The notes under the pieces were generated by a model that had not been told where the DNA came from, made no database searches, and saw only the letters and a program-made list of their open reading frames with translations. Source: Arthrobacter sp. zg-Y238 (GTDB lineage: Bacteria; Actinomycetota; Actinomycetes; Actinomycetales; Micrococcaceae). From it: DNA of 64,000 bases. Position 1 is the first letter of the stretch. Each line of letters begins with the position of its first letter. The stretch lies in assembly GCF_024385525.1 (NCBI RefSeq), contig NZ_JANFLU010000001.1, forward strand, positions 372,001 to 436,000, read 5' to 3'. Position numbers and translations under genes: made by a program. This document shows, piece by piece, positions 7,508 through 51,953 of this stretch.

Positions 7508-9082
7508 GTGAACGCAGCACGGGCAGTTTCCATGGCACCGGCATCGGAGGACGGTGGGCTGCTCGGCACCATTGACGCCGCCGTCAACTCCTTCTTTGAA
7601 CCGATTACAGCTGTGTTCTCCGGGATCGTCTTCTTCCCGATCACCATCGGCGACTTCAGCTTCCCCGCGGTCGTCGCCTGGCTGATCATCGCCGGCATCG
7701 TTTTTACGTTCTACTTCGGTTTCATCCAGTTCCGCGGTCTGAAGGTGGCCACCCAGGTGGTCCGCGGCAAATTCTCCTCCCAGGATGATCCGGGCGAGGT
7801 GCCGCACTTCCAGGCCCTCACCTCCGCTCTTTCCGGCACCGTCGGCCTGGGCAACATTGCCGGTGTCGGCGCGGCCATGGCCCTCGGTGGACCCGGTGCG
7901 ACCTTCTGGATGATCCTGGCCGGGCTGCTGGGCATGGCCTCGAAGTTCGCGGAGTGCACGCTCGGGGTGAAGTACCGCGAGGTCCATGAGGACGGCTCGA
8001 TCAGCGGCGGTCCGTTCAAGTACCTGCCCGTGGCTTTTGCCCGCTTCGGCCGGTGGCCGGCGAAGATCCTCACCGGAATCTTCGCCGTCGCGATCCTGAT
8101 CTTCGGCGTGGCCGGCGGCAACATGTTCCAGGCCAACCAGACCTTCGCGCAGATCCAGAACGTCACCGGCGGCGACGACGGCCTCCTCGGCAGCGCGGGT
8201 GCGGCCCTGATCTTCGGCCTGGTCCTGGCTGTCCTGGTCGCCGTGGTGATCCTGGGCGGCATCAAGTCGATCGGCGCCACCACCTCCAAGCTGGTGCCCG
8301 CCATGGCAGGCATCTACATCGTGGCCTGCCTGTTCGTGATCATCGTCAACATCGAGAACGTGCCGGCAGCCTTCGGTGCCATCATCGAGGGCGCCTTCCG
8401 TCCCGAGGGCTTCGCCGGCGGCATCATCGGCGTCATGATCGTCGGCTTCCAGCGGGCATCCTTCTCGAATGAGGCCGGTGTCGGGTCCGCAGCCATCGCC
8501 CACTCCGCGGTCAAGACCCGCCGTCCGGTCAGTGAAGGCTTCGTGGCGCTCTTCGAGCCGCTCGTGGACACGGTGCTCATTTGCACCATGACCGCACTGG
8601 CCATCATCATGGCGTCCACTCCCAGCCTGCAGGCAGGAATTGACCAGGTCCAGGGCGGCGGAGCAGCGCCCGACGGCGTCATCCTCACCTCCGACGCCTT
8701 CGCCACCGTCCTGCCGTGGTTCCCGATTGTGCTCTCCATCGCGGTGGCGCTCTTCGCCTACTCCACCCTGATTACCTGGTCCTACTACGGCCTGAAGTCC
8801 TGGGAATACCTCTTCGGGCGGGGCCGGCGCCGGGAAATCGCCTACAAGGTCATCTTCCTGCTCTTCACCGTGGCCGGCTGCGTCCTGTCCTTCAGCCAGG
8901 TCATCAGCTTCGCCGACGCCGCGCTCTTTGTCTGCGCGTTCGTGAACCTGCTCGGCGTGTACCTGCTGCTGCCCGTGATCAAGAAGGAAATGAAGGAGTA
9001 CCTGGCGGACCGCAAGAGCGGAAAGCTGGAAGTGCTCGGCATTGACGACAACGACATCAAGGAGGCCGCCGCGACCGCCTAA
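7508..9082 (+). CDS. Alanine/glycine:cation symporter family protein (AGCS)
   Basis: Inner-membrane symporter taking up small neutral amino acids (alanine, glycine, sometimes glutamine) with Na+ or H+. The 524-residue chain has about ten or eleven hydrophobic segments. The family signature ALTSALSGTVGLGNIAGVGA lies near residue 103, and a GGIKSIGATTSKLVPAMAGIYI stretch follows in the middle. Its place straight after the glycine/serine catabolic genes suggests glycine or alanine as substrate, which is inference. GTG 7508 is the first start in frame, with a weak AGGGG upstream. A strong terminator follows at 9121-9163. Confidence 0.93.
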   Translation: MNAARAVSMAPASEDGGLLGTIDAAVNSFFEPITAVFSGIVFFPITIGDFSFPAVVAWLIIAGIVFTFYFGFIQFRGLKVATQVVRGKFSSQDDPGEVPHFQALTSALSGTVGLGNIAGVGAAMALGGPGATFWMILAGLLGMASKFAECTLGVKYREVHEDGSISGGPFKYLPVAFARFGRWPAKILTGIFAVAILIFGVAGGNMFQANQTFAQIQNVTGGDDGLLGSAGAALIFGLVLAVLVAVVILGGIKSIGATTSKLVPAMAGIYIVACLFVIIVNIENVPAAFGAIIEGAFRPEGFAGGIIGVMIVGFQRASFSNEAGVGSAAIAHSAVKTRRPVSEGFVALFEPLVDTVLICTMTALAIIMASTPSLQAGIDQVQGGGAAPDGVILTSDAFATVLPWFPIVLSIAVALFAYSTLITWSYYGLKSWEYLFGRGRRREIAYKVIFLLFTVAGCVLSFSQVISFADAALFVCAFVNLLGVYLLLPVIKKEMKEYLADRKSGKLEVLGIDDNDIKEAAATA

Positions 9083-44242: not shown

Positions 44243-45088
44243 ATGGAAAATGTCACCCTGAACAACGGCGTCGAAATGCCGATCCTGGGCTTCGGCGTGT
44301 ACCAGGTCCCGCCGGGCGAGACCGAAGAGGCCGTCAGCAACGCGCTGGCCGCCGGCTACCGCTCGCTGGACACGGCAGCGGCCTACCAAAACGAAGACGC
44401 GGTGGGGCGTGCCGTGCAGAAGAGCGGTCTGGCGCGCAATGAACTGTTCATCACCACCAAGCTCTGGATCCAGGACAACGGCGAGGCCACCACCACGCGC
44501 GCCTTCGAGACTTCGCTGCAGAACCTGGGCACGGAATATGTGGACCTGTACCTAATCCATCAACCCTTCGGCGACGTCTACGGCGAGTGGCGGGTGATGG
44601 AACAGCTTTACAGCGACGGCGCCGCGCGGGCCATCGGAGTTTCGAACTTCACCCCGGACCGGCTGATCGATCTGATCATGCACCACGACGTGGTTCCTGC
44701 CGTGAACCAGATTGAAACCAACCCGTTCTACCAGCGGGCCGTCGAAAACCAGCTGATGAGCGACCGCGGCGTCCGGCACGAATCCTGGGCGCCCTTCGCG
44801 GAGGGGAAGAACAATCTCTTCTCCGATCCCACGCTCTCGGCCGTCGGCGAGGCCCATGGGAAATCCATTCCCCAGGTAGTGCTTCGCTGGCTGATTCAAC
44901 GCGGGATAGTGGTGATCCCGAAATCGGTCCGGCCGGACCGGATGGCGGAGAACTTCGACGTGTTCGACTTCGAGCTCAGCCCACAGGAAATGGCCTCCAT
45001 CGCGGACCTCGACACGGGGAAGTCTCTGTTCTTCGACCACCGGGACCCCGAGGCCGTGGCCCGCTTGAGCGGGGTCACTTTGGACTAG
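44243..45088 (+). CDS. Aldo/keto reductase (AKR5-like)
   Basis: 281-residue NADPH-dependent reductase. The tetrad is seen in DTAAAYQNE (D, Y), ITTKLW (K) and YLIHQP (H), with [14 protein letters not shown] binding the cofactor. It resembles 2,5-diketo-D-gluconate reductase and prostaglandin F synthase-type AKRs. ATG 44243 has AAAGGAAAG upstream. Its open frame to 44201 overlaps the cupin and is not used. The stop overlaps the convergent HTH gene by 14 bp. Confidence 0.92.
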
Positions 45089-45620
45089 TTTCGGGCGCCC
45101 GGTGCAGGTCCCGCACGAGGTAGAGCCACGGGAAGGACCGGCTCCCCACCTCCCAGCCGTCTGTTTCGTAGTGGGAGGACGGCCTGGTCCAGAGCACGCG
45201 GCGGTGTTCCCACTGGGTATCCGTCTGCAGCATCCGGTGCCGGAGCATGTCGACGCCGATGGTGCGCCAGCCCAGCCGTCCGGCCAGTTCCAGCTCGGGC
45301 AATTCATCGAAGGCCGTAACCGGACCGAGCCAGCGCTCGCGGGAACCGGGGGCCTGCTCGTCAGGCCGTGCACCGAAACGCTGCTGCACCGCCTGCCGGG
45401 TCATCCCCAGCTCCCGGCCCAGCGCGGCCCAGCTGACTCCCGCGCTCCGGGCCGCCGCGACTGCCCGGTGCTGCAGCTGCTGGCTTGCCTGCTCGGCGGC
45501 CCCTGCCCTGGCCACCAGGGCGAGATGGTCCGCCGCGGTGAGGGTCCCGGCGTCGTCGTAGTCACCGAGAATCAGCGCGCCGATCTGTTCCTGCAGATCC
45601 GTGACCGGACCGCCGGTCAC
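45075..45620 (-). CDS. Helix-turn-helix protein, putative regulator
   Basis: 181 residues. An N-terminal helical part leads to a clear HTH (about 58-83: [22 protein letters not shown]). The C-terminal half ([42 protein letters not shown]) is a Trp/Arg-rich domain I do not recognise. GTG 45620 overlaps the stop of the small membrane gene by 4 bp (GTGA), so the pair is translationally coupled. Its likely operator is the GTGTCAA inverted repeat at 45864-45884. Related HTH proteins occur in actinobacteria without assigned function. Confidence 0.8.
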
Positions 45621-45862
45621 GGCTGTTCCCCTGCATCGCGGCTGGGCAGCCAGTACTCCCTGCCGCTGCTGTCCTTGTTTCCCCGCCGGACCAGCGTGAC
45701 GGCAAGGTACACGCTGAGCACGATCAGGGCGCCGCCGCCGCCCTGGCAGAGTCCCTTTGGGAAGCCGTGCAGATCGAGTAGCAGCCAGGTCGCAAATAGT
45801 GCGACCCCAACCAGAAACATGAGTGCGGAGTAAACGGCGGTGAAGATGCGGAAAGTTCTCAT
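45617..45862 (-). CDS. Small two-helix membrane protein
   Basis: 81 residues with two predicted helices (IFTAVYSALMFLVGVALFATW and GALIVLSVYLAVTLV) and a charged C-terminal tail. No family recognised. The ATG at 45862 lies seven bases after TTTGAT (45870-45875, minus strand). TTGACG (45893-45898) lies 17 bp upstream of that, a good leaderless promoter. The GTGTCAA dyad overlaps this -10. It is the first gene of a coupled pair with the HTH protein, an arrangement that suggests the HTH protein controls its own operon. Confidence 0.75.
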   Translation of the reverse strand: MRTFRIFTAVYSALMFLVGVALFATWLLLDLHGFPKGLCQGGGGALIVLSVYLAVTLVRRGNKDSSGREYWLPSRDAGEQP

Positions 45863-45863
45863 G

Positions 45864-45912
45864 GTGTCAATCAAAGCTTGACACCATCGGAACGTCAAGT
45901 GTTTGTTGACAC
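45864..45912. promoter_or_regulatory. GTGTCAA operator cluster between divergent genes
   Basis: GTGTCAA (45864-45870) and TTGACAC (45878-45884) form an inverted repeat, extended to TGGTGTCAA/TTGACACCA. A third half-site TTGACAC is at 45906-45912. The first pair covers the -10 of the membrane protein gene. The third overlaps a TTGACA that could be a -35 for the repeat-protein gene on the other strand. Confidence 0.7.
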
Positions 45913-46017
45913 TTTCTTTTCATGGCTCCCGGTACTCGCGAATTCGGGGTCCGCGGCGGCTAGGGTGCGGGCATTGGTGCGCCACGAACGGCACACCGCC
46001 AGGAAAAGGAGTGGAAC

Positions 46018-46260
46018 ATGGGACATTCAAGGCTGTCGTTGTGGTCATCCGGGTCGGTGCTGTCCATCGGGTCGAAGAACTCGGTGCTGTCGATCGGCAG
46101 CGTGGGGTCGGCGTGTTCGATCGGTTCGATCGGATCGTTTGGGTCGGTGCTGTCCATCGGATCCGCGCTATCCGCCGTGGCGGTGATGTCCTGGCTGTCC
46201 GTCGGGTCGATCATGTCGTCGCGGTCGAAGGCGGGGGTCATGGCCGCGGGCAAGGCCTAG
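46018..46260 (+). CDS. Serine triplet-repeat protein (xxS)n
   Basis: 80 residues with serine at every third position from S4 to S70, broken only by A55 (22 of 23 positions). The intervening residues are mostly hydrophobic plus Gly or Leu, often VLSIGS. AAAAGGAG at 46004-46011 precedes the ATG by six bases and settles the strand. The antisense frame is a mirror image rich in Asp/Pro. No signal peptide or charged core. A beta-solenoid or fibril-forming structure is possible. I recognise no family. Its stop overlaps the convergent DUF4232 gene by 4 bp. Confidence 0.8.
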   Translation: MGHSRLSLWSSGSVLSIGSKNSVLSIGSVGSACSIGSIGSFGSVLSIGSALSAVAVMSWLSVGSIMSSRSKAGVMAAGKA

Positions 46261-47423
46261 CCTGCGGGCGTCCAAGCTGTGACCGTCAGATAGCCGGGTT
46301 CCGCCAGATCGATGTCTGCCTCCAGTTCCTGCCGCTGGGTCCCGGAGTAGGGGGCCACCAGCAAGGTGCCTACCCGGACCATGCCCGCCCCGGCCGTACC
46401 GCGCCAGCCGATCGAGGCCGTGGCTGCTTCCCCCGGGGCCAGCGTCACCGGCTGCACCGGAGGATCCTCGGTCATATGGGAGCCGCCGTGCACCGCGGTG
46501 ATGCCCATGACCCAGCCATCGCTGCTCTCGAAGTCCAGATCCGGGTAGCCCTGCACCGTGCAGGACCGTGTTCCTGTGTTTCGCACGGTGATCTGCGCTG
46601 CCCGGTGGCCCGTGGCCGCATCCCACCCGCCGATCGAGGACTCGACTTCTTCACCGGTGCACCACAGCGGATCCGGCTCGGAGAGGGCGGCACCCACCGG
46701 GGCGGCACCGTAAACCGTTGGCTCCGGAGTAGGCGTCGCGGCAGGCTCCGGGGCCGGTTGCGAGGGATCGCGGGCGGTGAGCGGAAGCGCAACCATCACG
46801 GCTGCGGAGAAAAGGGCGAATGCCCCCAAGGCCCAGCCACGCTGCCGAACCCGGGCGGTGGGGGCGGGTTCCTCCGGAACCCGGGCTGCGTGACGTTTCT
46901 CCGGCAGATGGGAACCCGCCCCGTCGGAGGCGGGGGCGGAAAGGAAGGTGGCCACGAGGGCCGGCACCCAGCCCCAGGCAACCCCCCAATACGCTCCGGT
47001 GAGCAGTGAGGGCCCAAGCAGGTCAAAAATCCACTGTGCCCGGCCCAGGGGCCATTGGGCCAGGACCGAAGCCACGGCCAGCACCGCTGAACCGGCCACG
47101 GCCGCCAGCGTCACGCTCATCCAGTTGGCCAGGAAGAGCGCGCCCCGGGTACCGGTCTTCCTGCTATCGGGCAGGAGCACCAAGGTGATCGCGGCCACGG
47201 CCAGGGCTGTTAACCCGGCCACCAGCACCAGGCCGGAACCGTCCAGGAGAGATTTGATGCGGACAGGCATAGTGTCCGGGGAGACCAGTGAAGCCAGGTA
47301 GATCGGTATCCGGCCGTTCCCTGCGGTCAGCAGCGCTTCGAAGGCCCAGCCGGAAATCAGCCAGAGGACAGCCACGACAGCGGGTAGAAGGAGCGGCTTG
47401 AGTTTTTCTGCAGTGTTCCCCAT
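46257..47423 (-). CDS. Membrane protein with C-terminal DUF4232 domain
   Basis: 388 residues. About five helices (1-200) are followed by a Pro/Thr/Ala-rich linker (about 230-250) and an extracytoplasmic DUF4232 domain (about 255-388). This last has the paired cysteines WCTGEEVE and SCTVQGYPDLDF expected of the family. Such domains are usually in lipoproteins and are thought to be beta-sandwich. Here the anchor is polytopic. It converges on the triplet-repeat gene with a 4-bp overlap. Confidence 0.85.
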   Translation of the reverse strand: MGNTAEKLKPLLLPAVVAVLWLISGWAFEALLTAGNGRIPIYLASLVSPDTMPVRIKSLLDGSGLVLVAGLTALAVAAITLVLLPDSRKTGTRGALFLANWMSVTLAAVAGSAVLAVASVLAQWPLGRAQWIFDLLGPSLLTGAYWGVAWGWVPALVATFLSAPASDGAGSHLPEKRHAARVPEEPAPTARVRQRGWALGAFALFSAAVMVALPLTARDPSQPAPEPAATPTPEPTVYGAAPVGAALSEPDPLWCTGEEVESSIGGWDAATGHRAAQITVRNTGTRSCTVQGYPDLDFESSDGWVMGITAVHGGSHMTEDPPVQPVTLAPGEAATASIGWRGTAGAGMVRVGTLLVAPYSGTQRQELEADIDLAEPGYLTVTAWTPAG

Positions 47424-47479
47424 GCAGCGAGGGTACCCCGTCGTCCTCTATCCGGATCCGGCAGCGGTGCGTGCGGGAA

Positions 47480-48442
47480 TTAACGCACCGTTGCGGGCGG
47501 GAGCTGCCGCCGCAGCTCCGCGCACAGTTCCGCCAGCGCCTGCGGAGCGCTGCGGCACAGCCGCGGGAAGGCCAGGTAACCGTGCGGCATCCCTACATAG
47601 GTGGTGACGCGGACGGGAACGCCGGCCTTGCGCAGGGCTTCGGCGTAGCGCAGCCCGTCGTCGCGGATGGGATCGTGTTCGGCCACCTGGATCAGTGCCG
47701 GCGGCAGCCCGGTGTGGTCCAACGCCAGCAGCGGCGAGGCGTACGGGTTGCTGCGGTCCTCCAGATTGGGGACGTAGAGGCTGCCGTAACGGAGAACGTC
47801 CTCCTTGGTGAGGATGGGTGCGTTGGCGTTTTCCTCGATGGACGGGCTGCCCAAGGTCATGTCGGTGGCGGGATAAATCAGTCCCTGGAACGCGATGGCG
47901 GGGCCGGACCGGTCCCGCGACATCAGCGTCAGCACCGCTGCCAGGTTGCCGCCGGCGCTGTCGCCCACGACGGCGAGCCGGCCGGCGTCGGCCTCCCATT
48001 CATCGGCCCGGGCGGCTACCTCGAGCAGTGCGGCATAGCAGTCCTCCGCCGCGGCGGGCCAGGGATGCGTCGGCGCCAGCCGGTACTCGAGGGAAACGAC
48101 GACGGCGCGTGCGTCCCGGGCAATGGTGCTGGCCAGCGAGTCATAGATGTCCAGGTTGCCGACCGTCCAGCCGCCGCCGTGGGCCAGGACCACCAGCGGC
48201 AACGTTCCATCGGCGTCCTTGGGGCGGTACACCCGCACGGGGATCCGGCCCTCCGCACCCGCGGCGGTGTCGTCCTTCAGTTTTACGCCGGAAGCGACGC
48301 CGCCCAGCACCCAGTCGACCACCGGGTTGTGCTTGATGGTGCGCTGCTGGTCGGCGAGAATCTGTTCCTCGCTCTTGCGGGCCACGGAGGTCCGCGCCAG
48401 CACCTTGCCCACCAGCCGTACCCGCAGATCCAGCTTTGCCAT
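47480..48442 (-). CDS. Alpha/beta hydrolase, HSL-type esterase
   Basis: 320-residue carboxylesterase of the hormone-sensitive lipase group. The oxyanion motif HGGG is in LAHGGGWTVGN, the nucleophile in VVGDSAGGNLAAVL, and the C-terminal Asp and His in EHDPIRDDGL and GMPHGYLAFP. These enzymes cleave short acyl esters. ATG 48442 is used because the upstream open frame (to 48706) is Arg-rich and overlaps the divergent uvrA-like gene. Confidence 0.92.
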   Translation of the reverse strand: MAKLDLRVRLVGKVLARTSVARKSEEQILADQQRTIKHNPVVDWVLGGVASGVKLKDDTAAGAEGRIPVRVYRPKDADGTLPLVVLAHGGGWTVGNLDIYDSLASTIARDARAVVVSLEYRLAPTHPWPAAAEDCYAALLEVAARADEWEADAGRLAVVGDSAGGNLAAVLTLMSRDRSGPAIAFQGLIYPATDMTLGSPSIEENANAPILTKEDVLRYGSLYVPNLEDRSNPYASPLLALDHTGLPPALIQVAEHDPIRDDGLRYAEALRKAGVPVRVTTYVGMPHGYLAFPRLCRSAPQALAELCAELRRQLPPATVR

Positions 48443-48643: not shown

Positions 48644-51040
48644 ATGAGCGCGGACACCACAACGAGCACCGGCACCGGCGGAGCGTCGCACGCGGCGGAC
48701 AGCCATGATGTGATCCGGGTGCAGGGTGCGCGGGTGAACAACCTGCGGGACATCAGCATCGAGATTCCCAAGCGGCGTCTGACGGTGTTCACCGGGGTGT
48801 CCGGCTCCGGCAAGAGCTCGCTGGTGTTCGGCACCGTGGCCGCCGAATCCCAGCGGCTAATCAATGAGACTTACAGTGCTTTTGTGCAGGGTTTTATGCC
48901 CTCCTTGGCCCGGCCGGAGGTGGACCTGCTGGAGGGACTGACCACCGCCATCATTGTTGACCAGGAACGGATGGGTGCGAATCCGCGCTCCACGGTGGGC
49001 ACCGCCACGGACGCCAACGCGATGCTGCGGATCCTGTTCAGCCGATTGGGGCAGCCGAACATCGGCCCGCCCAACGCGTATTCCTTCAATGTCCCGTCCG
49101 TGAAGGCCTCCGGCGCCATCACGGTGGAGCGGGGCGACGGCAAGACCCGGGCGGAAAAGGCGGTGTACAACCGGCTCGGCGGCATGTGTCCCCGCTGTGA
49201 GGGGACGGGAGCGGTCACCGACTTTGACCTGACGGCACTGTTCGACGGCGCGAAGTCGCTGTCCGAAGGGGCGATCACGGTGCCGGGCTACAGCATGGAG
49301 GGATGGTTCGGGCGGATCTACGCCGGTTCCGGGTTCTTCAATATGGACAAGCCGATTGCAAAGTTCAACAAGCGCGAGCTGCATGACCTGCTCTATAAGG
49401 AACCCACCAAGATCAAGGTGGAGGGCATCAACCTCACCTATGAAGGACTGATCCCCAAAATACAGAAGTCGATGCTGTCCAAGGATCCCGAAGGGATGCA
49501 GCCGCACATCCGCGCCTTCGTGGAACGGGCCATCACCTTCAGCACCTGCCCGGAGTGCGACGGGACCCGGATCAGCCCGGAGGCACGGTCCTCGAAGATC
49601 GGCGGCCTCAACATCGCCGACGTCTGCGCCATGCAGATCAGCGACCTGGCCGGCTGGGTGCGCGGGCTGAAGGAACCCTCGGTGGCGCCGCTGTTGGCCG
49701 GGCTGCAGCACCTGCTGGACGCGTTTGCGGAAATCGGGCTGGGCTACCTGTCCCTGGACCGGCCGTCGGGCACCCTGTCCGGCGGGGAGTCGCAGCGGAC
49801 CAAGATGATCCGTCATCTGGGCTCCTCGCTGACGGACGTCACCTACGTCTTCGACGAACCGACCATTGGCCTGCACCCGCATGACATTGCCAGGATGAAC
49901 CAGCTGCTGCTGCAGCTGCGGGACAAGGGCAACACCGTGCTGGTGGTGGAACACAAACCCGAAACCATCGCGATTGCGGACCACGTGGTGGACCTGGGCC
50001 CAGGCGCCGGCACCGGGGGCGGCACCGTCACCTTCGAGGGGCCGCTGGACGGACTGCGGAAAAGCGGCACCCTGACCGGCCGGCACCTCGGGGACCGGGC
50101 CCGGCTCAAGGACTCGGTGCGGCCGGCGTCGTCGGCCCTGGAAGTGCGCGGTGCCGCCACCAACAACCTGCGCGACGTCGACGTCGACATTCCGCTGGGT
50201 GTGCTGGTGGTCCTCACCGGGGTGGCCGGCTCCGGCAAAAGCTCACTGATTACCGGGTCGGTGTCCGGGCGGGAGGGTGTGGTGACCGTGGACCAGGGCG
50301 CCATCCGCGGCTCGCGGCGCAGCAACCCGGCCACCTACACCGGTCTGCTGGAACCGATCCGCAAGGCGTTCGCGAAGGCCAACGGGGTGAAACCGGCACT
50401 GTTTTCCTCCAACTCCGAGGGAGCCTGCCCGGCCTGCAACGGCGCCGGGGTGATCTACACCGAGCTGGGCGTGATGGCCACTGTGGAATCGGTGTGTGAG
50501 GACTGCGAGGGCCGCCGCTTCCAGGCCTCGGTGCTGGAATATCGGCTGGGCGGGAAGGACATTGCGGAGGTGCTGGCCCTGTCAGTGGGCGAGGCGCAGG
50601 AGTTCTTCGGCGACGGCGAAGCCCGCACCCCTGCCGCACATAAGATCCTGAGCCAGCTGGCCGACGTCGGGCTCGGCTACCTGCATCTGGGGCAACCGCT
50701 GACCACGCTTTCCGGCGGGGAGCGGCAGCGGCTGAAGCTGGCCACGCACATGGGCGGCAAGGAAGCGGTTTTTGTGCTGGACGAGCCGACCACCGGCCTG
50801 CACCTGGCCGACGTCGAACAGCTGCTGGCCCTGCTGGACCGGCTGGTGGATTCCGGGAAGTCGGTGATCGTGATCGAGCACCACCAGGCCGTGATGGCGC
50901 ATGCGGACTGGATCATCGACCTGGGCCCTGGTGCCGGACGGGACGGCGGGCGCATCGTGTTCGAGGGGACACCGGCGGATCTGGTGGCGGACGCGTCCAC
51001 GCTGACCGGAGAGCATCTGGCGGCCTACGTGGCGGGGTGA
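48644..51040 (+). CDS. UvrA-like ABC ATPase (short paralogue, drug-resistance type)
   Basis: 798 residues, about 150-200 shorter than housekeeping UvrA. The order is Walker A (GVSGSGKSSLVF, near 50), a reduced insertion region with a CPRCEGTG pair, signature LSGGESQR near 378, Walker B FDEPTIGLHPHD, second Walker A GVAGSGKSSLI near 526, a C-x2-C...C-x2-C zinc module (CPACNGAG, CEDCEGRRF), and LSGGERQRLKLATH near 690 with LDEPTTGLHLAD. This is the UvrA2/DrrC-like group, linked to removal of DNA-binding drugs. No UvrB or export partner is adjacent. The ATG follows GGAG. Confidence 0.92.
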   Translation: MSADTTTSTGTGGASHAADSHDVIRVQGARVNNLRDISIEIPKRRLTVFTGVSGSGKSSLVFGTVAAESQRLINETYSAFVQGFMPSLARPEVDLLEGLTTAIIVDQERMGANPRSTVGTATDANAMLRILFSRLGQPNIGPPNAYSFNVPSVKASGAITVERGDGKTRAEKAVYNRLGGMCPRCEGTGAVTDFDLTALFDGAKSLSEGAITVPGYSMEGWFGRIYAGSGFFNMDKPIAKFNKRELHDLLYKEPTKIKVEGINLTYEGLIPKIQKSMLSKDPEGMQPHIRAFVERAITFSTCPECDGTRISPEARSSKIGGLNIADVCAMQISDLAGWVRGLKEPSVAPLLAGLQHLLDAFAEIGLGYLSLDRPSGTLSGGESQRTKMIRHLGSSLTDVTYVFDEPTIGLHPHDIARMNQLLLQLRDKGNTVLVVEHKPETIAIADHVVDLGPGAGTGGGTVTFEGPLDGLRKSGTLTGRHLGDRARLKDSVRPASSALEVRGAATNNLRDVDVDIPLGVLVVLTGVAGSGKSSLITGSVSGREGVVTVDQGAIRGSRRSNPATYTGLLEPIRKAFAKANGVKPALFSSNSEGACPACNGAGVIYTELGVMATVESVCEDCEGRRFQASVLEYRLGGKDIAEVLALSVGEAQEFFGDGEARTPAAHKILSQLADVGLGYLHLGQPLTTLSGGERQRLKLATHMGGKEAVFVLDEPTTGLHLADVEQLLALLDRLVDSGKSVIVIEHHQAVMAHADWIIDLGPGAGRDGGRIVFEGTPADLVADASTLTGEHLAAYVAG

Positions 51041-51185: not shown

Positions 51186-51536
51186 TTACGACACCGGGCT
51201 GCGGTGCGCAAACATGATCACGGCGACCCCCGCCAAGCAGATCAGCGACCCGAGGATGTCCCAGCGGTCGGGCCGGAAACCGTCGAAGACCATGCCCCAG
51301 GCCAGCGAGCCGGCCACGAAGACTCCGCCGTACGCGGCCAGGATCCGGCCGAAGTGCGCGTCCGGCTGCAGTGTGGCCACGAAACCATAGGCGCCCAGGG
51401 CCATCACGCCCAGGCCCGCCCACCACCAGGCCCGGTCCTCCCGCACGGACTGCCACACCAGCCAGGCTCCGCCGATTTCGGCGGCAGCGGCCAGGAGGAA
51501 CAGCAGGATGGTTTTTGCAATGGTCATGGCATCCAT
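51186..51536 (-). CDS. ynfA: YnfA family four-helix membrane protein
   Basis: 116 residues (113 if ATG 51527 is used), the YnfA/UPF0060 size. Four helices are present, with [18 protein letters not shown] in helix 1, [24 protein letters not shown] in the third region and [17 protein letters not shown] at the end. The family is related to SMR transporters and may export cations or drugs. Both flanks are filled with palindromic repeats. It may form a loose unit with ltrA upstream on the same strand, but 417 bp separate them. Confidence 0.9.
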
Positions 51537-51953
51537 CCTGCCGCAGGTTCGGAGGGGAGCGGGGGTGCGGGCAAGCGGGGTCGGCGGGCGTGCGGCCAGC
51601 CGGCGAGCGTAGTCGGAGTTTGTGCTGCCGGCATGGGAATTTGCTGCCGGTTCAATCTGGCAGCAAAACGTCAAAGTGACAGCGTAAGTGCAAAACGGAC
51701 GGTTAGACGGCTGGTCCAGACGGAGAACCGACGCCGGAGTCTGGGAACCGCCGGATTTCCTGCACATTGTCGGAATCCCTGCAGTTTGTGACAATCCCCG
51801 CTCCGCGCAGCGCAGGGATTGTCACAAACTGCAGGGATTTGCCCAAAACGCAGGGAATCCAACTGCGTCAGGGGTGGTCCGCCCCGGCCCCGCCCGTCCG
51901 GCCCGGCCCGGCCCCGGGCTACATGCACCCGGACCGGCCCGGTCATCAGCAAG
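51537..51953. repeat. 417-bp repeat-rich gap with perfect 25-bp inverted repeat
   Basis: No gene. Arms 51774-51798 and 51815-51839 are perfect reverse complements (25 bp, 16-base loop containing GCGCAGCGC). Outlying half-copies are GGATTTCCTGC near 51754 and CGCAGGGAATCC near 51850. A separate 9-bp hairpin TTTGCTGCC/GGCAGCAAA lies at 51640-51648 and 51659-51667. The element shares arm ends and loop words with 51077-51113. Confidence 0.75.

Follow-up and report, generated by a model that had tools for sequence, protein, structure and literature searches.

A small actinobacterial repeat protein with serine at every third residue

Does a reading frame that places serine at every third residue encode a genuine protein, and if so, what might such a protein build? 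The question is raised by a short open frame in Arthrobacter sp. zg-Y238, within the 64,000-nucleotide stretch of DNA analysed here (hereafter the window). The frame translates to MGHSRLSLWSSGSVLSIGSKNSVLSIGSVGSACSIGSIGSFGSVLSIGSALSAVAVMSWLSVGSIMSSRSKAGVMAAGKA, in which, as the first-pass annotation had described, serine occupies 22 of the 23 positions from residue 4 to residue 70 in steps of three, the sole gap being residue 55 (Ala). Of its 80 residues, 24 are serine, distributed 22, 2 and 0 over the three registers, and in 20000 composition-preserving shuffles the best in-register count was 16, short of the 22 observed. The Shine–Dalgarno sequence noted in that annotation is likewise in place.

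46018–46260, + strand: coding sequence for the 80 aa of the serine-triplet protein (evidence from the open frame, dN/dS, homologues and variation by codon position)
46006–46011, + strand: Shine–Dalgarno sequence AAGGAG, 6 nt upstream of the ATG, read directly

Coding status of the serine frame

The serine gene is no clean DNA tandem repeat, as Tandem Repeats Finder reported two short imperfect arrays only. Across 11 loci of the genus, the variable columns of a 73-codon core fall 25/12/54 on codon positions 1/2/3, and the serine frame gives a mean pairwise protein difference of 0.093 per residue, as against 0.215–0.360 in the other five frames, a pattern which indicates that selection acts on this reading frame. 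Median dN/dS is 0.078 and the maximum 0.215 (55 pairs, 11 genus genomes), and GGAG stands 5–8 nt 5′ of the start codon at 10 of the 11 genus loci (the exception is L009). On these comparisons the frame is a real protein-coding gene under strong purifying selection in the window's genus. An antisense ORF at 45960–46253 (− strand) does span most of the gene, which might suggest that the serine frame is an artefact of antisense coding or of simple-repeat DNA. We give this almost no credence, as even the slowest antisense frame, in which this ORF falls, changes more than twice as fast as the serine frame (0.215 vs 0.093), dN/dS is far below 1 and start-site signals are present. We read the antisense ORF as a by-product.

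Members, gene neighbourhoods and start sites

The annotation had proposed a search for homologues, counting their absence against its own reading, and many were found. Against 59 relatives the serine protein gave 15 matches, one of which (L015) is a simple GSV repeat, while the reversed protein, which retains both composition and serine spacing, matched 0 of 59, a blank result whose only positive control is that these genomes do answer to the forward query. At a threshold of 1e-6 there are matches in 75 of the 394 genomes sampled from the class, representing 35 of 138 genera, with a best E below 1e-10 in 67 and weaker in eight; the ORF is visible in all 29 class loci fetched (L030–L058). A phylum sample, in which no genome had more than 11 candidates scored, yielded matches in 28 of 396 genomes. 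By tblastn, whose E-values here are relative to candidates only, at least 465 of 593 matched stretches of genome contigs encode relatives; 80 of these were kept for reading, and all show the serine ORF. Their titles name Arthrobacter, Microbacterium, Streptomyces, Kitasatospora, Micromonospora, Salinispora and Paractinoplanes, as well as Nocardioides, Blastococcus, Janibacter, Brevibacterium and Acidimicrobiales. Members are also present on Streptomyces plasmids, where they are annotated as 'hypothetical protein' or not at all; one of these (WP_164369710.1, L094, 121 aa) differs from the window protein in an extra C-terminal hydrophobic stretch. No phage record matched, and 19 pattern matches among viral contigs held no confirmed relative. 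None of 57 members matches Pfam (E 0.01) and none of three matches PHROGs. Taken together, these searches indicate that the serine protein is a widespread, strongly conserved actinobacterial single-gene family that matches no Pfam model.

Some matches were set aside. Simple GSV/GST runs, namely L015/L191 (G056), L069 and L070, were rejected as members, and part of the 75 class and 28 phylum matches may also be low-complexity false relatives. L069 and L070 (G008, G018) contain open frames of 749 and 684 aa, from positions 696 and 348, respectively, made of near-pure GSV/GST triplets; this is simple-repeat DNA unlike that of the family, possibly in a wrong-strand reading. Weak plasmid matches outside Streptomyces were inspected in Tritonibacter, Brasilonema, Gloeothece and Nocardia; those in Tritonibacter and Brasilonema look like unrelated low-complexity sequence. 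Two distant loci encode a like repeat in other settings: in L192 (G652) it follows an N-terminal hydrophobic segment and precedes further C-terminal residues, and in L193 (G788) a Gly-rich stretch comes after it, then a hydrophobic segment at the C-terminus. On the plasmid stretch L092 (7736–8321), the plasmid's own annotation has a hypothetical gene running antisense to part of the serine gene, and starts the latter at 8085, compared with 7977 as chosen here.

Within the genus, 12 of 29 genomes carry the serine gene. The layout was read in 16 kb from each of 11 of these carriers (the same-species genome G441 was left out), and in all of them, the window genome and 10 others, the gene occupies a single common locus that adjoins aldo/keto reductase, alpha/beta hydrolase and UvrA-like genes. 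Its immediate neighbours in the window are as follows.

45617–45868, − strand: 83-aa hydrophobic (TM) ORF, divergent; not found at the G012 locus
45075–45620, − strand: HTH-like protein, with weak Pfam HTH matches only; no match in G012
46257–47423, − strand: DUF4232 protein, convergent; not found at the G008 and G002 loci

As the serine gene is kept in G012 and in G008 and G002, these layouts indicate that the 83-aa ORF and the HTH-like gene are not required for it and that all three neighbours vary independently of it. Eight genus genomes without the serine gene complete the comparison. In four of them (L212, L213, L215, L217) the TM and hydrolase matches are separated by 83–187 bases that contain no serine gene, in two the spacing is 1.6 and 3.9 kb, and in two the TM match is missing; from its absence between these flanking genes, the serine gene appears to be gained or lost as a single gene. 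The UvrA-like gene of the window (48644–51040) encodes an ABC ATPase of 798 aa which matches the PADLOC model mad3 (E 4.6e-67) and other ATPase models also. An inverted repeat at 51753–51860 (54 nt, arms adjoining, 80% complementary) sits at the 5′ end of an ORF at 51186–51794 (− strand), and could be either a mobile palindromic element or a regulatory hairpin.

Across genera, where neighbouring genes were called by a simple GC rule, the attempt to read a function from the neighbours failed, only large common families (ABC ATPases, SDRs, methyltransferases) being recurrent. A surface-protein-like gene ('GGLKTYGEAVIHDTDGDLPVPAGLF', probably a TQXA thioester domain) lies at most 2 kb upstream in 14 of the 80 named loci. 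Streptomyces and Kitasatospora loci number 43 by hand count; the two loci with this gene that were inspected closely (L145, L154) are Streptomyces, and since six other Streptomyces loci have different neighbours, we claim no link to it.

The start sites were compared in the 75 of 80 named loci with a rule-chosen ATG, five GTG starts being excluded. A at −11 combined with T at −7 from the ATG occurs in 59 of the 75, as against an average of 1.2 and a maximum of 5 at 41 other offsets. This is the place of the −10 box in leaderless mRNAs, and a leaderless-type −10 box is predicted for these 59 genes; the first base of the candidate box is usually C and not the usual T, and no −35 element stands out among the 75 loci. 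C occupies position −1 in 65 of these genes, and a Shine–Dalgarno-like tetramer was found in 28. The window's genus uses a Shine–Dalgarno sequence.

The nonapeptide, its length steps and its codons

Members are laid out as a short N-terminus, a triplet core, a C-terminal landmark and then, often, a hydrophobic tail. The core has a median of 23 triplet slots in 108 proteins, and its 99% filling with serine is by construction, as the core is defined by its serine run; position 2 is mostly V, I, A or L, and position 3 is Gly in 39% and Leu in 30%. The serine period of three is nested inside a deeper repeat of nine residues, S-V-L-S-I-G-S-V-G: across the same 108 proteins, the occurrence of Gly in the third triplet position shows positive correlations 3 and 6 triplets apart (0.36 and 0.29), and negative ones at lags of 1, 2, 4, 5 and 7. 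In the window protein, the repeat and the landmark are placed as follows.

46054–46134, + strand: three clear nonapeptide units, SVLSIGSKN, SVLSIGSVG and SACSIGSIG (residues 13–39; block split)
46189–46230, + strand: conserved C-terminal landmark SWLSVGSIMSSRSK (residues 58–71; 34-sequence alignment)

In the C-terminal half of the window protein serine recurs at nearly every third residue and the strict nine-residue phase is lost. The landmark is comparable with SWLSTGSLLSAQSRWSVLSWRS of Streptomyces members; S64 and S67 are invariant and S58 and S61 nearly so among 34 sequences, and the family form is S-W-L-S-x-G-S-[LIV]-[LMF]-S, followed in many by W-R-S. Serine triplets, S-x-L-S-[IV]-G-S-x-G units, an anchored length divisible by nine and the landmark C-terminus together mark the family; the window protein has them all and can be aligned with the family over its whole length.

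Repeat number varies, a point that the annotation had proposed to check among strains, and does so in length classes nine residues apart. Of 126 proteins, 59 measure 54 residues and another 63 measure 63 residues between anchors at S13 and S67, so that 122 lengths are multiples of nine, and the four misses measure 28/29, 50, 53 and 59; the count is alignment-based, with three MAFFT settings in agreement, and the 54 of the window protein (S13 to S67) is set by the construction of the anchors. Gaps in the core are nine residues long in 17 of 17 cases in one alignment (A2) and in 27 of 29 in another (A4). An earlier regular-expression test placed 59 of 59 and 110 of 112 proteins in one class modulo nine, but it left 21 of 80 and 15 of 127 unmatched and can slip by whole nonapeptides, and it is the alignment count on which we rely. 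The alignments may themselves slip by one nonapeptide (the same proteins measure 45 in A2 and 54 or 63 in the larger alignment), which leaves the class modulo nine unchanged, and because the 126 proteins are related, the independent length changes are fewer than these counts. Most Streptomyces members align with one extra nonapeptide. The steps of nine could reflect mutational bias, through recombination or slippage of 27-bp units, and not a structural need.

The serine codons carry a record of their own. TCN makes up 91% of them in the 80 actinobacterial members vs 70% in neighbouring ORFs (those of at least 150 aa by a simple rule, of which some frames may be wrong), and AGY is rarer in the serine gene than in its neighbours at 80 of 80 loci. 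As TCN and AGY are two changes apart, the excess is consistent with a TCN-coded ancestral repeat that seldom lost its serines; both codon families occur in 13 of 19 near-invariant serine columns, so some switches between them have happened. In alignment A4, AGY clusters at few positions (19 of 57 at S28, 23 of 56 serines at S40), and several other serine positions show zero AGY in 56 or 57; this clustering may be due to shared ancestry.

A similar nonapeptide occurs in a cyanobacterium. The hypothetical protein WP_013334591.1 (98 aa), encoded in 38% GC DNA on a plasmid of Gloeothece verrucosa PCC 7822 and found at E 4e-4 among the plasmid matches listed, contains the units SILSLASVG, SLLSIGSVG, SILSIGSVG, SILSIASAG and SILSVASAG, and codes 20 of its 22 serines as AGY. 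A return search with this protein, with the BLAST low-complexity filter on, brought back no plasmid match other than the protein itself, and no phage match. We read this one case as probable convergence of the Gloeothece protein and the actinobacterial family onto the same nonapeptide, while transfer followed by recoding is possible.

What the repeat might build

The annotation had pictured a solenoid or fibre with one polar face, such as a beta-helix, an amyloid-like fibril or an ice-binding surface, and structure prediction lends this no support. Two AlphaFold2 models, built on 57 and 37 aligned sequences, have mean pLDDT values of 52.9 and 55.3 and a pTM of 0.26 in both; they contain no strands, only low-confidence alpha-helix mostly towards the C-terminus, and pLDDT is lowest in the N-terminal core. 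Foldseek found no match in the PDB to the second of these models, a result of little weight given the model's low confidence, and sequence matches in the PDB (kinesin light chain and similar) were dismissed as GS/TGS-type linkers or weak low-complexity similarity. An amyloid-like assembly may still suit a chain rich in V, I, S and G and uncharged over residues 21–67.

A signal-peptide-like start was found in 0 of 126 proteins by a simple hydropathy rule with no dedicated predictor (L192, outside the 126, is an exception in having an N-terminal hydrophobic segment), which argues against a secreted ice-binding protein or a surface fibre. In this Streptomyces-rich sample, a similarly simple hydropathy criterion (KD over 19 residues ≥1.4) calls a C-terminal TM-like tail in 77 of the 126 proteins; an earlier set gave 69 of 108. 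As the net charge is positive on both sides of the tail (+2.40 before, +1.96 after), its direction is unreadable from charge. The window protein has no tail, and one 19-residue stretch reaches a KD of 1.83; in the cores at large, a KD19 of 1.6 is reached in only 38 of 126 proteins, and 80 of 123 have zero charged or His residues within 45. The hydrophobic moment peaks at 120 degrees (0.91, next 0.37), trivially so because serine stands at every third residue. Membrane association is predicted for most of the sample.

Known repeat systems resemble the family in part. The RTX beta-roll shares a glycine-rich repeat of nine residues and variable number; its motif, however, is GGxGxDxUx with a Ca-binding Asp, whereas the window protein has no Asp, Pfam matched 0 of 57 members and AlphaFold2 shows no beta-roll. 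For the other known beta-solenoid classes (pentapeptide, hexapeptide and others), the same Pfam search and the modelling gave neither a match nor a confident solenoid, though models of such low confidence leave room for one, and bacterial ice-binding proteins (DUF3494) and secreted antifreezes likewise find no counterpart in the Pfam result or in the start regions of the 126 proteins. The chaplins and rodlins of Streptomyces are also small, hydrophobic and actinobacterial, and the serine protein might assemble as they do; but they are exported and developmental, while this family lacks a signal-like start and a Pfam match and extends to Microbacterium, Arthrobacter and other genera. The snow flea antifreeze, a Gly-x-x polyproline-II bundle, has a similarly strict three-residue repeat of small residues, but the invariant residue here is Ser and not Gly, and with Gly at 39% and Leu at 30% of position 3 (108 proteins), the Gly at every third residue of a collagen-like repeat is not found either.

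We favour, at a probability of about 0.4, a membrane-associated, self-packing repeat, and weigh it against four other readings. In a serious though unlikely one, the protein would be disordered low-complexity sequence rich in Ser, and the spacing would serve either an enzyme that modifies the serines, for instance by phosphorylation, or a binding partner, and not a fold of its own. The low pLDDT, lowest in the N-terminal core, and the 22 of 23 serines in register would suit it; a V/I/L-rich core so long and so poor in charge (80 of 123 proteins) is unlike usual disorder, though, the hydrophobic positions are conserved too, and no modifying enzyme recurs at the loci examined. Somewhat less probable, in our estimate, is that this small protein inserts into the membrane as a helix bundle lined with Ser and conducts across, disturbs or regulates it, toxin-like roles included. 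The hydrophobic core and TM-like tail, the patchy presence in the genus (12 of 29), the shifting gene neighbourhoods and the Streptomyces plasmid copies are what such a protein might show, against which stand the borderline hydrophobicity of the core, the strong purifying selection, PADLOC searches that returned nothing for the two members tried, and the lack of any phage match or confirmed viral-contig relative.

We give little weight to a RiPP-like precursor peptide, comparable to the His-Xaa-Ser repeat proteins, with the serines as the modified residues. HxsA4 (NF038313) is itself small with a Ser-rich repeat, and among NCBIfam models it matches 37 of 57 members below cut-off (best E 5.7e-6; one further match is to YdhT); lanthionine synthetase genes lie within ~8 kb at two of three annotated plasmid loci. 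Yet the window protein has a single His, hence no His-x-Ser run, and scores 19.3 bits against a cut-off of 55; neither HxsA4 nor the radical SAM partner HxsC (TIGR03977) exceeds its cut-off in any of 25 serine-gene genomes, sub-cut-off HxsC matches being found in 24 of these 25 and also in 13 of 14 control genomes, and no maturase recurs across loci. Very improbable, finally, is a codon sensor, a leader ORF whose run of TCN serines senses serine tRNA without making a working protein: the TCN excess and its consistency at 80 of 80 loci might be taken that way, as might the leaderless-type start, but no downstream gene recurs across genera, the non-serine positions and the landmark are conserved, the cyanobacterial copy uses AGY, Rfam gave no match at gathering score within 45000–47500, and the excess is simply explained by TCN-coded ancestry with serine seldom lost.

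The self-packing repeat would work as follows. Made in the cytoplasm, the serine protein would act as a scaffold on the cytoplasmic side of the membrane, attached to it by the tail or, where this is missing, as in the window protein, by the uncharged Ser/Val/Ile/Leu/Gly core, and copies would pack together. If the chain had about three residues per turn (3-10 or polyproline-II-like), its faces would be all Ser, all V/I/A and Gly-Gly-Leu; such a three-faced helix is geometry, not evidence. The Leu bump, recurring every nine residues, would have to stay aligned with the chain beside it, and this would account for lengths that step by nine residues instead of three. The likeliest role would be a membrane-bound structural scaffold or small rod, which is a guess from sequence. 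Against the self-packing reading count the lack of a confident AlphaFold2 fold, with alpha-helix predicted instead, and the lack of any neighbour that recurs across genera other than large common families; so do the borderline hydrophobicity of the cores, the tail of unreadable direction, the loose phase in the C-terminal half of the window protein and the chance that mutational bias underlies the steps of nine. A bolder version, which we think unlikely, is that S-phi-L-S-phi-G-S-phi-G is a new structural repeat, a three-faced membrane rod that arose independently in actinobacteria (TCN) and a cyanobacterium (AGY) and is missed by current structure predictors.

In kind, this is a small repeat protein whose repeat unit is new as far as the searched libraries show; to our knowledge, its serine repeat is among the most regular in natural bacterial proteins not encoded by microsatellites. 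The family occupies 75 of 394 class genomes and at least 465 candidate contig stretches, and our searches found no Pfam model, solved structure or paper for it; AlphaFold2 cannot place its repeat. As a small single gene present in many Streptomyces, it makes structural and knock-out work cheap, and if the apparent convergence with the cyanobacterial protein holds, the nonapeptide would have a physical use.
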